This document shows, piece after piece, positions 47,651 to 52,159 of a stretch of 55,380 nucleotides of DNA. The notes under the pieces were generated by a model that saw nothing but the letters and a program-made list of their open reading frames with translations, was not told the DNA's origin and did not search any database. Position numbers and translations under genes: made by a program. Where the stretch lies: contig NZ_JAQTQR010000006.1 of NCBI RefSeq assembly GCF_028712165.1, forward strand, positions 1-55,380. The letters run 5' to 3'. The number at the start of each line of letters is the position of its first letter. Within the stretch, counting starts at the first letter, position 1. This stretch comes from Sulfuricurvum sp. Lineage in GTDB: Bacteria; Campylobacterota; Campylobacteria; Campylobacterales; Sulfurimonadaceae.

Positions 47651-48895
47651 TTAGAGGTATTTTTGCAATACGGCAGGGATAACGATCGTGCCGTCTTCCT
47701 GCTGGAAATTTTCCATAATAGCTATCATCGTCCGTCCGACCGCTAAACTTGAACCGTTTAGGGTATGTGCGAGGATGTTTTTGCCTTCTTCTTTGTATCG
47801 GATCTTTGCACGACGGGCTTGGAAATCCCGTGTATTGGAGACGGAGCTGATTTCACGATAGGTATTTTGTCCCGGAAGCCACACTTCGAGATCGACGGTA
47901 CGCGCTGCACCGAATCCCAAATCACCCGTACAGAGGGTAACGAGACGGTGCGGAAGACCAAGCGCTGCGAGAAGATCGGAGGCACATGCAACCATCTCTT
48001 CAAAGACCGCGTCGCTTTGATCGGCACGGGTGATACTGACGAGTTCCACTTTATGAAATTGATGCTGACGGATCATGCCGCGTACGTCACGTCCGCCGCT
48101 TCCCGCTTCTTTGCGGAAGCATGAGGTATAACCGGTCATTTTGATCGGAAGATCGGCACCGTTGATGATCTCGTCTTGGAAGAGGTTTGTGAGAGGAACT
48201 TCCGCCGTCGGGATCAAATAGAGCTCTTCTTCTTCGACTTTGAAGAGATCCTCTTCGAATTTCGGAAGCTGCCCCGTCCCCTCTAGTGCTCGGCGATTGA
48301 CGAGCATCGGAACGCTATACTCTTCGAAGCCGCGTTCACGGTTGAAATCGAGCATAAAGTTGATGAGGGCACGTTCTAAACGGGCACCCATCCCGCCCAC
48401 GACGCTAAAACGGCTTTTAGCGAGTTTGACACCGCGCTCAAAATCGATCCAGCCGTTTTGTTCGGCGAGTTCCCAGTGCTCTTTTGGGGTAAACGTAAAG
48501 GTCGGAGGAGTGAGCACTTTGCGTAGCTCGATATTGTCGTTTTCATCTTCACCGTCCGGCACATCGGCATCGGGGATGTTTGGGACACGCATGATGATCG
48601 CATCGAGGGCTTCTTCGGCGGAGCGTTGTGTATCGAGGAGATCATTTAGGGTTGCTTTGTTCGCATCGACCTCGATTTTCAGCTCATCCGTACTTTTCCC
48701 CTCTTTTTTGTACTGACCGAAAAGACGGCTGAGTTCATTTTGTTTGGCTTGCAATGTCTCGTAAGCAAGTTTGGCAGTTTTGAGGGTTTCGTTTGCAATT
48801 TTAAGTTCGTTGATTACGGAAGCGTCCACTTTTTTACGCATAAGAGCGGCTGCGGTTTCGTCAAAATTTTTCTGGAGAAGTTTTACATCGATCAT
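47651..48895 (-). CDS. serS: seryl-tRNA synthetase
   Basis: SerS charges tRNA-Ser (and tRNA-Sec) with serine. The 414-residue protein has the N-terminal coiled-coil tRNA arm (about 1-105), the [10 protein letters not shown] block, class II motif 2 ([20 protein letters not shown]) and motif 3 ([19 protein letters not shown]). The length is typical. It is the upstream gene of serS-pflB and diverges from the KAP NTPase across about 200 bp of A+T-rich DNA. Confidence 0.96.
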
Positions 48896-49000
48896 AAAGG
48901 GTCATTCCTGCAATTATATAGTGATCGATTATAGCCAAAAGAGGCTGAAATTTGTTCTCTCTAAGATCCTAATGAAGGCATATTTGAATAAGTGAAATCA

Positions 49001-49054
49001 GACAATATTTATTTTGTCACAACAATTGACAAATTATTTTTTGTCTTATATAAC
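49001..49054 (+). promoter_or_regulatory. consensus promoter with two 18-bp operator-like palindromes, upstream of KAP NTPase
   Basis: TTGACA (49026-49031), a 17-bp spacer and TATAAC (49049-49054) form a near-perfect sigma-70 promoter. Two 18-bp sites of the form GACAA-N8-TTGTC lie at 49001-49018 and 49028-49045. They match at 14 of 18 positions, and their starts are 27 bp apart. The second covers the -35/-10 spacer. They look like tandem operators for a repressor. The regulator is not identified. Confidence 0.6.
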
Positions 49055-49111
49055 AAGCATGATTTTATTGTAAACTATCTGCACTAAAATACAATGCTAA
49101 CGAGATGTAAA

Positions 49112-50587
49112 ATGGAACAAAAACTAGCTATTTGGGAAGATGATTTACTAAACCGAAAGAAGGAGGGCAAGTTCCTTTCCGAATATCTTTTAAAACGTTA
49201 TTCAAATACTCCAAATAAGCCTTTTGTATTAAATATCAATGCCGAATGGGGATTTGGAAAAACCTATTTTTTAAAAAACCTTTCCAAAGAACTTGCAACA
49301 CAAAAACATCCTGTCATCTATTTTGATGCATGGCAAAACGATTATTCAGATCAGCCGCTTTTAGCTTTTATCTCAGAAATGAATACATCATTAAAACCTT
49401 TTCTTAGCAAAAGTGCTCAGGGAAAAAAATTATTTGATAAAGCATGGAATACATCAAAAAAACTGTTAATGCCAATACTTGTTAAAAAGTTTACAGGATT
49501 AACATATGATCAATTAATGGGAGAGTTTGATGGCAGTACCGAAAACATAAAAAATGAGAATGATACAGAAGATGATGCAACAAAAAATGAAGTCGAATCA
49601 GTACTGTCAAAATTAGCTGAATCAGCATTGTCAGATCATGAAACTGTTCGAAAAAGCATCACTACATTTAAAGAGAATATGGCGAAATTATTAAGTTATA
49701 TTGATAAAAATATTTCATCTAAACAATTGCCTATGTTTATCTTTATTGATGAATTAGATCGATGCCGTCCTAATTATGCGATTGAGTTACTCGAAAATAT
49801 CAAACATATCTTTGATATTCCCGGAATCATGTTTGTTATTGCAACTGATTCGAAACAACTTTCACATTCTATCAATGCTGTATATGGTCAGAACTTCGCA
49901 TCCGAACGCTATTTAAAGCGTTTTTTCGATCAAGAATACAACCTAACTAAACCGGATAATTATGCCTTTGCTCAGTATCTTTTTGAACTTCATGGTATTA
50001 CCAAAGATGAAAAACTATTTTCACCTTTAGAGCAAGAGGTTTATAAAGACAAAGACATCAATGTTGAGCTTTTTACCCTTTATGCCAGTTTTTTCAAATT
50101 GGGGCTAAGAGATCAGGAACAAGTAGCTACAGTTTTATCTGCGATTGTGTTGACATGGCAAACGACTGATTCAATACACTTAGGCTATTTGCTATTTTTG
50201 ATTATGTTAAAACAATGTTCTAATAGTTACTTTTATAATTTTAAAGAAACCGTCAACACGAAAAAAGGATCATTTATCAAGAATAATTTAGATCAATTGA
50301 ATATAGATATATCGTTTCAATATAAGTCAAACTTTGAAAGCAGAAATTCCATGATATCTACTCCAAAGTTTGAACTAAATTTATATTCATTAAACAATTT
50401 AATCGAATTGTATACTTCCTTATTAGACATAGACGTTATGCAATTATATAATCTAAAATACAATAATATTTCGGTACATTCTAATGTCATTGAAAAAATG
50501 ATTTCAGATACTCAGAAAAATAATCAATCAGTACCTAATCTAAATATTTATCTTAATCTTGTTTTACAAGCGGGACAGTTTTCGTAA
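49112..50587 (+). CDS. KAP-family P-loop NTPase
   Basis: This protein of about 491 residues belongs to the KAP NTPases (Kidins220/PifA type). It has Walker A AEWGFGKT (44-51), the KAP signature FDAWQNDYSDQPLLAF, and Walker B FIFIDELDRCRP near 209-220. VIATDSKQL, NFASERYLKRFFDQ and the C-terminal helical part follow. Most KAP proteins have two membrane segments between Walker A and B; here that region is charged and helical, so a cytoplasmic form is likely. PifA excludes phage T7, and many bacterial KAP genes sit in defence islands. An in-frame ATG at 49094 would add six residues but has no ribosome site. Base composition is visibly A+T-richer than the neighbours. Confidence 0.85.
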   Translation: MEQKLAIWEDDLLNRKKEGKFLSEYLLKRYSNTPNKPFVLNINAEWGFGKTYFLKNLSKELATQKHPVIYFDAWQNDYSDQPLLAFISEMNTSLKPFLSKSAQGKKLFDKAWNTSKKLLMPILVKKFTGLTYDQLMGEFDGSTENIKNENDTEDDATKNEVESVLSKLAESALSDHETVRKSITTFKENMAKLLSYIDKNISSKQLPMFIFIDELDRCRPNYAIELLENIKHIFDIPGIMFVIATDSKQLSHSINAVYGQNFASERYLKRFFDQEYNLTKPDNYAFAQYLFELHGITKDEKLFSPLEQEVYKDKDINVELFTLYASFFKLGLRDQEQVATVLSAIVLTWQTTDSIHLGYLLFLIMLKQCSNSYFYNFKETVNTKKGSFIKNNLDQLNIDISFQYKSNFESRNSMISTPKFELNLYSLNNLIELYTSLLDIDVMQLYNLKYNNISVHSNVIEKMISDTQKNNQSVPNLNIYLNLVLQAGQFS

Positions 50588-50610
50588 AATATATGAAAAA
50601 TCTTTATTGC

Positions 50611-50667
50611 CAATATATTGACAAAATTACATTTATACGACATAATGACAATATATTGACAAAATTA
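50611..50667 (+). promoter_or_regulatory. yefM-yoeB promoter with twin palindromic operator repeats
   Basis: A 19-bp sequence, caatatattgacaaaatta, occurs twice (50611-50629 and 50649-50667), 38 bp apart. Each copy begins with the perfect palindrome CAATATATTG. TTGACA at 50618-50623, a 17-bp spacer and CATAAT at 50641-50646 make a good promoter. One palindrome overlaps the -35 and the other the expected transcription start. This suits autorepression by the YefM-YoeB complex. Confidence 0.65.
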
Positions 50668-50682
50668 AAAAAGGAGTTTGCG

Positions 50683-50934
50683 ATGCAAGCCATGTTTTAT
50701 TCTACGGCACGTAATAACCTGCGAAGTATGATCGATAGCGTGTGTAAGGACTGTGAAGAGTACATCATCACGACCAAAGACAACCAAAGTGCGGTGCTGA
50801 TCTCGTATGAAGAGTATGCTTCGATGAAAGAGACGATGTACCTCCTTTCATCTAAAACTAATCGTGATCGTTTGCTGGATTCCATTGAAGAGATCGAAAA
50901 CGGTCATTTCACCGTGCAAGAGATAGCCAGTTGA
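50683..50934 (+). CDS. yefM: YefM-type antitoxin (Phd/YefM family)
   Basis: This 83-residue antitoxin has an N-terminal DNA-binding fold, FYSTARNNLRSMIDSVCKD, and ITTKDNQSAVLISYEEYASM, then the toxin-wrapping tail LLSSKTNRDRLLDSIEEIE. All match YefM. The ATG at 50683 is chosen, with AAAAAAGGAG 7 bp upstream; a longer frame from 50593 would translate the promoter repeats. It neutralises YoeB and, with it, should bind the upstream palindromes. The stop overlaps the toxin start (TGATG). Confidence 0.9.
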   Translation: MQAMFYSTARNNLRSMIDSVCKDCEEYIITTKDNQSAVLISYEEYASMKETMYLLSSKTNRDRLLDSIEEIENGHFTVQEIAS

Positions 50935-51185
50935 TGATCGCGTTTTCGACCAACGGATGGGAAGATTATCTCTATTGGCAATACAATGATAAAAAGATTC
51001 TAAAGAGGATCAATACGCTGTTGGAAGATATTCGCCGAAACCCTGATGAGGGGTTAGGGAAACCTGAACGGTTAAAAGAGAATTTATCGGGATATTTGTC
51101 CCGACGGATTACTGCTGAGCATCGATTGATCTATACAATCAAGAATGATCTTATCATCGTAGCGCAGTGTCGATATCACTATTAA
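50934..51185 (+). CDS. yoeB: YoeB-type mRNA interferase toxin
   Basis: YoeB is a ribosome-dependent endoribonuclease that cleaves mRNA in the A site. The 83-residue protein has DYLYWQ, GKPERLKENLSGYLSRRI, EHRLIYTI and the C-terminal CRYHY. The catalytic residues of E. coli YoeB (Glu46, Arg65, His83, Tyr84) correspond to Glu45, Arg64, His82 and Tyr83 here, so it should be active. ATG at 50934 overlaps the antitoxin stop by one base. A TTG one codon earlier is possible. Confidence 0.93.
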   Translation: MIAFSTNGWEDYLYWQYNDKKILKRINTLLEDIRRNPDEGLGKPERLKENLSGYLSRRITAEHRLIYTIKNDLIIVAQCRYHY

Positions 51186-51189
51186 AATA

Positions 51190-51253
51190 GTTCCGCTCGT
51201 GGTGAGCTTGTCGAACCATGAAAATACCCTTCGATAGGCTCAGGACGAACGGA
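51190..51253. repeat. REP-like imperfect inverted repeat
   Basis: The arms TCCGCTCGTGGTGAGCTTG (from 51191) and the complement of CTCAGGACGAACGGA (to 51253) pair over about 24 bp with a few mismatches, around a loop containing ATGAAAATAC. The core GTCGAA/TTCGAT with GAGC/GGCTC resembles a widespread intergenic repeat family (TTCGTCCTGAGC...TCGAAGG). It sits exactly between convergent yoeB and metF, where it could stop transcription from both sides. Confidence 0.65.
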
Positions 51254-51256
51254 AGA

Positions 51257-52159
51257 TTAGCTCAAAATCGCCTTTGCAAGTTCAAACTGATTGGCGGTCA
51301 TGATGTGGATTTTCGGATGGAGCGCTTTGAGCTCTTCGAAAAGGTTTTTGCTGAGTTCAAATCCGACTCGGTACTCTTCCTCAGGGCTGATGAGTGAAGC
51401 GGCTTCGAGGGCTTCGACCCACTCGCTCGGCACAAATATTCCCGGAACATTTTCATCTAAAAATCGGGCGGTGCGGAGTTTCGTAATCGGAAAATAGCCT
51501 AAAACTAGTACGCACTCAGCATTGTTTTCACTGTTGGCGTTTTCCATCATTTCCAATAGTTTTTTTGCATTTTCGAGATCATAAACCGGTTGGGAGACGA
51601 TTGCGATTGCTCCGTGGGCTACTTTTTTCGACATCTTTTTTTGCAATGTTGCAGAGCTTTTGGCATAGGCATCGATAACGGCAAAGGGGAAAATCTCTTG
51701 GACGGGAGCGAGGAGCTTTTGTTCTGCGAGATCGGTTCCGTTGTTCAGGGTAGCAATGATATCGAGGAGGAGTTTACTGTTCCCTTCGAATACCCCTTTT
51801 GCATGAGGCTGATCGGAGTTGTGCGCGCTGTCACCCGTGAGGGCGAGGATGGCGCGGACGTTGGCTTCGTTGGCTCCGAGGAGATCGGATTGCAATGCGA
51901 TACGGTTGCGGTCGCGCATACTCATGGTTGCGAGTGTCGGTTTTCCGAAACGCTCTTGGAGTTTTACTGCAGCAAAGAGGGCGTTGTATTTGAGTTTGGC
52001 AAGAGGATTATCGGTAGTGCTGAAACCGTCTACGAGTTTATCAAGACCCAAAGCGGCAATTTTTTCAATCGTAGGGGCAAACTGTGCCGATCGTGACGGT
52101 GTGGTCTCAAGGGTGATATAGGTTCCGTGACGGAGTTTATGGATAAATGATTCGAACAA
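51257..52159 (-). CDS. metF: methylenetetrahydrofolate reductase
   Basis: MetF reduces 5,10-methylene-THF to 5-methyl-THF for methionine synthesis. The 300-residue FAD-dependent barrel has TLETTPSRSAQF with the catalytic Glu, DRNRIALQSDLLGA and LALTGDSAHN, AIVSQPVYD and LGYFPITKLRTARFL. The early region (LVDGFSTTDNP) departs from the Enterobacteria pattern, so it may be a divergent subtype. It diverges from serB by 51 bp and converges on the yoeB toxin across the REP-like repeat. Confidence 0.85.
   Translation of the reverse strand: MFESFIHKLRHGTYITLETTPSRSAQFAPTIEKIAALGLDKLVDGFSTTDNPLAKLKYNALFAAVKLQERFGKPTLATMSMRDRNRIALQSDLLGANEANVRAILALTGDSAHNSDQPHAKGVFEGNSKLLLDIIATLNNGTDLAEQKLLAPVQEIFPFAVIDAYAKSSATLQKKMSKKVAHGAIAIVSQPVYDLENAKKLLEMMENANSENNAECVLVLGYFPITKLRTARFLDENVPGIFVPSEWVEALEAASLISPEEEYRVGFELSKNLFEELKALHPKIHIMTANQFELAKAILS

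Follow-up and report, generated by a model that had tools for sequence, protein, structure and literature searches.

A candidate anti-phage KAP NTPase gene in the metF-serS junction of Sulfuricurvum sp. and its promoter with two phased palindromes

KAP NTPases of phage defence and the repressors of defence genes

PifA of plasmid F, which has a KAP NTPase domain, blocks T7-like phages (PMC11990801), and QatA, itself a KAP NTPase, is reported to bind DNA, to form a heptamer or octamer and to be dispensable for part of the defence conferred by qatABCD (PMC13279940). In addition to such systems there are the PDC families, which were put forward because they are embedded in known defence loci and which are for the most part yet to be validated (PMC12988326). 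PDC-S20 is listed in PADLOC as a single-gene phage defence candidate; its members are soluble proteins of about 450–490 amino acids that are found solitary or within defence loci. As to the control of defence genes, the CapW repressor of CBASS acts at a palindrome that covers the −10 box (PMC9122588), and RptR requires at least two sites (PMC12255303). The operators of CapW, BrxR and RptR are palindromes that cover core promoter sequences of defence genes, and each of these repressors has its own gene next to those under its control.

The gene considered here lies in a window of 55,380 nucleotides, the whole stretch of DNA analysed, from Sulfuricurvum sp. (contig NZ_JAQTQR010000006.1; the source genome is G000). 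On the forward strand (49112..50587) it codes for a KAP P-loop NTPase of 491 amino acids, assigned to the PDC-S20 family from profile matches. The PDC-S20 profile (PDLC04959) matches practically the full length of the protein (residues 6–470 on model positions 14–443 of 464; E 1.4e-96), and there is no essential difference from this family, to which the present copy adds a promoter with tandem operators and the position in a metF-serS hotspot. The preliminary description had named PifA as a relative, which is correct for the KAP NTPase domain; the nearest defence family, however, is PDC-S20, the PifA profile aligning with E 5e-21 at residues 34–377 (model positions 37–345 of 720), so that the protein is not a member of PifA, whose 720-position model has a long extra C-terminus. 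The QatA profile matches with E 8e-17, but neither qatB, qatC nor qatD is found beside the gene, its neighbours being serS, yefM, yoeB and metF. The same holds for RADAR: RdrA chains have about 800 residues as compared to 491, and no gene for the RdrB deaminase adjoins. With respect to its promoter the gene resembles those controlled by CapW, BrxR and RptR in that one palindrome (49028..49045) overlaps the −35 box. It differs from them in that its insert contains no linked gene for a WYL or other helix-turn-helix repressor and in the sites themselves, which have 11-bp arms and a 5-bp spacer in the case of BrxR, the sequence TAGCTA in the case of RptR, and consist here of a 27-bp phased pair of GACAA-N8-TTGTC.

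The KAP protein and its place in a cargo hotspot

The ATG at 49112 is taken as the start because it aligns with the start of the orthologue in G016; a second in-frame ATG is at 49094, and the stop codon ends at 50587. PF07693 is matched with E 1.5e-38 (133 bits versus a cut-off of 20). The Walker A motif is at about residues 46–53, with W46, G47, G49, K50 and T51 invariant, and the Walker B motif FIDELDRCRP at residues 211–220, with IDELDRC (212–218) invariant. The transmembrane insert that many PF07693 members have in the NTPase domain, and which membership does not require, is absent, as had been noted before; indeed, there is no membrane-like segment in the protein, the mean hydropathy over 19 residues peaking at 1.26. 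In an AlphaFold model calculated from 13 aligned sequences (mean pLDDT 70) the NTPase core is usable, and residues 121–173, helices within 102–200 and parts of the C-terminus are of low confidence, the C-terminus not being resolved. Compared by VIA-align with solved structures, the model is closest in fold to RdrA of RADAR (Z 17.9; 226 aligned residues, rmsd 3.1, 17% identity), followed by Orc/Cdc6 (Z 13.9). It should be noted that the Foldseek TM-scores with RdrA are low (0.36–0.46), the chains differing in length, and that the VIA-align ranking is the clearer one.

The orthologue in G016 is 78% identical and occupies the same metF-serS slot without yefM-yoeB. The differences between the two proteins are concentrated in residues 401–450 (50312..50461, forward strand), which are only 30% identical with a dN of 0.69, whereas dN of the other blocks of 50 residues is 0.02–0.20 and the final 30 residues are almost identical. 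Such variability could reflect a recognition surface or an exchange by recombination or gene conversion. Rfam and tRNA scans of this region gave no matches.

The gene is flanked on one side by serS (47651..48895, reverse strand) and on the other by the antitoxin gene yefM (50683..50934, forward strand; PF02604, E 2.9e-20) and the toxin gene yoeB (50931..51185, forward strand; PF06769, E 2.4e-36), the start of which lies within the end of yefM; then follows metF (51257..52159, reverse strand). The KAP gene thus does stand alone between serS and a toxin-antitoxin pair, as proposed in the preliminary description. When compared with the empty metF-serS site of G035, which measures 58 bp, and with other empty sites, KAP and yefM-yoeB together form an insert of 2,304 bp (48953..51256, the edges being accurate to within a few bases). 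The G+C content of the insert is 32.7% versus 43.1% for the rest of the window and is 30% in the KAP gene, which bears out the earlier view that A+T-rich DNA breaks a region of core genes here. The insert ends towards metF with a REP-like inverted repeat (51190..51255; GAGCTTGTCGAA / TTCGATAGGCTCA), and REP-like repeats are similarly found at the edges of the inserts in G016, G026, G029, G020 and G018. The promoter of yefM-yoeB (50604..50670) is composed of CAATATATTG, present twice, and TTGACA-17-CATAAT; it is conserved upstream of yefM in G026, G029, G013 and G030, and its repeats differ in core and spacing from the palindromes in front of the KAP gene.

A comparison of the serS-metF interval among relatives, recommended at the outset, revealed that the gap is empty (57–60 bp) in 20 genomes of the genus and filled in 12, including the source genome; at nine further genomes the site could not be judged. 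At the 12 filled sites the cargo is mostly different between genomes. It includes yefM-yoeB with a membrane gene, a BrnTA-like pair, methylase/HNH-like genes, an ATPase and polysaccharide-type genes, all of which, yefM-yoeB and KAP excepted, were named by eye from the translations. Close KAP copies were found in only two of the 37 genus genomes searched (G000 and G016). Because of the empty sites, the differing cargo and the REP-like edges, the metF-serS junction is a cargo hotspot and the KAP gene an accessory gene therein. As a gene it adds one more member to a family already listed as a defence candidate, and its hotspot is of an ordinary kind. At this junction (L081–L100 and the window) yefM-yoeB recurs with varying companion genes.

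The assignment to a defence-type gene family, already made in the preliminary description, is in line with where other PDC-S20 members are found. For example, G012, which belongs to the same genus, has a relative within a type I restriction-modification operon in the order hsdM, hsdS, KAP, PDC-M04A, hsdR (L018, 640–11588); another immediately follows the S24 repressor gene of a Helicobacter prophage, and a third is solitary in a Vibrio prophage. Plasmid records with relatives number 159, and 68 of these plasmids are predicted to be conjugative. From this context a defence role of the KAP protein is likely. The function of most KAP proteins is not known, and the hotspot also harbours genes that do not look like defence genes (G009 and G060, for example, have genes of the polysaccharide and membrane type there), so one could think of a protein for signalling or for DNA or membrane maintenance in a slot that is merely permissive; in view of the association of PDC-S20 with restriction-modification systems, prophages and plasmids, of the predicted RdrA-like fold and of the patchy distribution, we regard this as improbable.

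The phased palindromes and their occurrence in other genomes

The consensus promoter and the two palindromes on which the preliminary description was built were found exactly where it had placed them. The promoter TTGACA-17-TATAAC (49026..49054, forward strand) has its −35 box at 49026–49031 and its −10 box at 49049–49054. Both palindromes are exact matches to GACAA-N8-TTGTC, the first (49001..49018) being upstream of the −35 box and the second (49028..49045) overlapping the −35 box and the spacer. A weaker promoter-like site, TTGTAA-16-TACAAT (49068..49095, forward strand), is situated within the DNA that is conserved with the G016 orthologue and may or may not be used.

Among 5,000 dinucleotide shuffles of the 216-bp intergenic region, none contained two such palindromes; a repeated dyad of any sequence with equal arm length (5 nt) and spacing arose in 22 of 5,000 shuffles and, if the arms were to contain at least two G/C, in none of 3,000. 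By these shuffles, and by the spacing-specific recurrence of the pair in 399 genomes, a chance origin is rejected. Enrichment is seen for the tandem but not for single palindromes, of which the source genome has 6 versus 11 for a reversed control, and the evidence therefore rests on the pair.

A lack of palindrome conservation had been named in the preliminary description as speaking against its reading. At the orthologous locus in G016 they are indeed not conserved, since homology with the window ends near the −10 box: the −10 region is kept, the −35 box and the operators are not, and a REP-like element replaces the upstream part, so that the palindromes have not been retained with the KAP gene. 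Upstream of the other PDC-S20 relatives examined no convincing palindromes were seen either. Conservation is found only in the form of sharing across unrelated loci. Since they are absent from the orthologue, the palindromes are not intrinsic to the KAP gene but a promoter module common to unrelated genes elsewhere.

In 399 genomes of the order, exact GACAA-N8-TTGTC pairs with any spacer of 1–25 were found at nine loci, in all of which the spacer is 9 (a 27-bp repeat), the reversed control giving none. In 397 genomes of the class, a sample that overlaps with the former and is thus not independent of it, pairs were searched with up to two mismatches; those with none or one are intergenic, and most matches with two are inside genes. 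The pairs with none or one mismatch precede a two-ATPase operon (seven genomes), the gene of a TPR protein (two), the intergenic region between an ORF and higA (two) and the KAP gene.

In the seven genomes with the two-ATPase operon (G007, G355, G387, G276, G392, G524 and G556) a GACAA-N8-TTGTC palindrome lies over TTGACA-17-TATAAT. In most of these promoters TTGACA and its 17-nt spacer are covered by one palindrome, with the other placed after the −10 box, whereas in the KAP promoter one is on TTGACA and the other 27 bp upstream; G355 combines all three positions. This placement over core promoters favours a function in repression, as judged from the sequences. The operon (L179, L183–L186, L231, L232) codes for an AAA/ATPase_2 protein of about 385 amino acids and a NACHT-like ATPase of about 650 amino acids, with a weak winged-helix match, and is possibly an uncharacterised defence or stress module.

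The second tandem pair of the source genome has an identical 27-bp repeat and is located directly upstream of higBA (C86), between higBA and an uncharacterised ORF. All 20 specified bases are matched in both pairs of this genome; in G023 the pair at the ORF/higBA region is kept with one mismatch. In this region (L107, 5283–6664; L164) the pair separates higA, with or without higB, from the ORF, which codes for 102–111 amino acids with, by eye, a rhodanese-like loop, is without Pfam match and is followed in the source genome by a DUF309 ORF. In front of the TPR protein the tandem operator is exact in G382 and G100, which belong to two genera; this protein (L182, 3697–4875; L112) has an N-terminal hydrophobic stretch, and in L182 genes resembling, by eye, those for arsenic resistance adjoin. 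In G405 the tandem operator is 3′ of a DinD-like PDC-S13 gene; PDC-M04AB is part of the same locus. In G037 (L230, about 1400–1545) an exact tandem operator is situated just 3′ of what reads as the end of a tRNA gene; the following stretch of about 700 bp seems to contain no genes and is possibly a decayed cassette. No exact tandem match was found in viral contigs, in which the single extended palindrome is mostly at coding or unrelated places. A literature search on the operator itself and on PDC-S20 yielded nothing.

Proposed control of the KAP gene

Taken together, we put the probability at roughly one half that the KAP gene encodes a mobile, probably anti-phage NTPase, which is repressed by an unlinked dimeric regulator common to other accessory ATPase genes. 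As long as the cell is not infected, a dimeric repressor from another locus would occupy the two phased palindromes, one of them on the −35 box, and would keep the strong KAP promoter off. A signal would then release, via one regulator or one family of regulators, several accessory ATPase modules in Campylobacterota, since the same operator module precedes other accessory ATPase genes. Like RdrA and QatA, to which it is structurally related, the KAP protein may assemble into a ring that depends on ATP; by analogy with QatA, which is reported to be a heptamer or octamer and to bind DNA, ring assembly is a reasonable expectation. The variable C-terminal region would be used for target recognition, and the NTPase would either block infection or arrest the infected cell.

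It is also conceivable, if unlikely, that the promoter module with the palindromes was captured, for instance from a two-ATPase cassette or another operator-bearing one since lost, that the source genome has no matching regulator and that the KAP gene is constitutive. This would agree with the confinement of the operator to that intergenic part which is not common with the G016 orthologue, and with the finding that ATPase1 of the two-ATPase operon is not detected in the source genome, where only two tandem sites are known. These two pairs are, however, exact, and the second is nearly so in G023, which is another species; this suggests that a regulator is present which maintains the operators.

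Autorepression is usual among antitoxins of the YefM and HigA types. Control by one of these antitoxins, the loss of which during infection would switch the KAP gene on, is the least probable reading: although yefM comes next after KAP within the same insert and the second tandem pair is immediately upstream of higBA, the yefM repeats are of another core and spacing, and in G021, whose HigA is 91% identical, TTTAACGTYATAGG remains by higA and the GACAA-N8-TTGTC pair is gone, while G023 retains the pair without higB and HigA is undetected in the tandem-bearing G007.

What is surprising is the operator, which is shared between loci with exact phasing; it makes the search for a regulator direct. 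Known defence-gene repressors are mostly encoded beside the genes they control. We tentatively propose that a hitherto undescribed dimeric regulator of Campylobacterota reads the 27-bp phased GACAA-N8-TTGTC pair and that this module may have spread onto unrelated accessory NTPase genes (KAP/PDC-S20, the two-ATPase operon with its NACHT-like protein, and others), which would make up a signal-controlled accessory or defence regulon across genera. If so, unrelated accessory ATPases in several genera can plug into one common control circuit. The operator DNA offers a ready bait for finding the regulator and the signal to which it would respond; SOS-type control is poorly understood in this phylum. 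KAP and the two-ATPase operon are testable defence candidates.

ORF and profile searches of the insert revealed no regulator gene besides that of the YefM antitoxin. YefM and HigA are disfavoured as the regulator for the reasons given above, and ATPase1 by its not being detected in the source genome; these judgements, like the one that follows, are drawn from few sequences. A core S24/CI-like repressor (L200–L223) is present in all 24 genomes searched, with one copy in the source genome. The motif upstream of its own gene, conserved in the nearer genomes and read by eye as TATKNCAA-W-TTGNCATA, has another half-site spacing, which argues against this repressor as the regulator of KAP. This motif is probably autoregulatory, and the S24 repressor is possibly an SOS-like regulator of the phylum.
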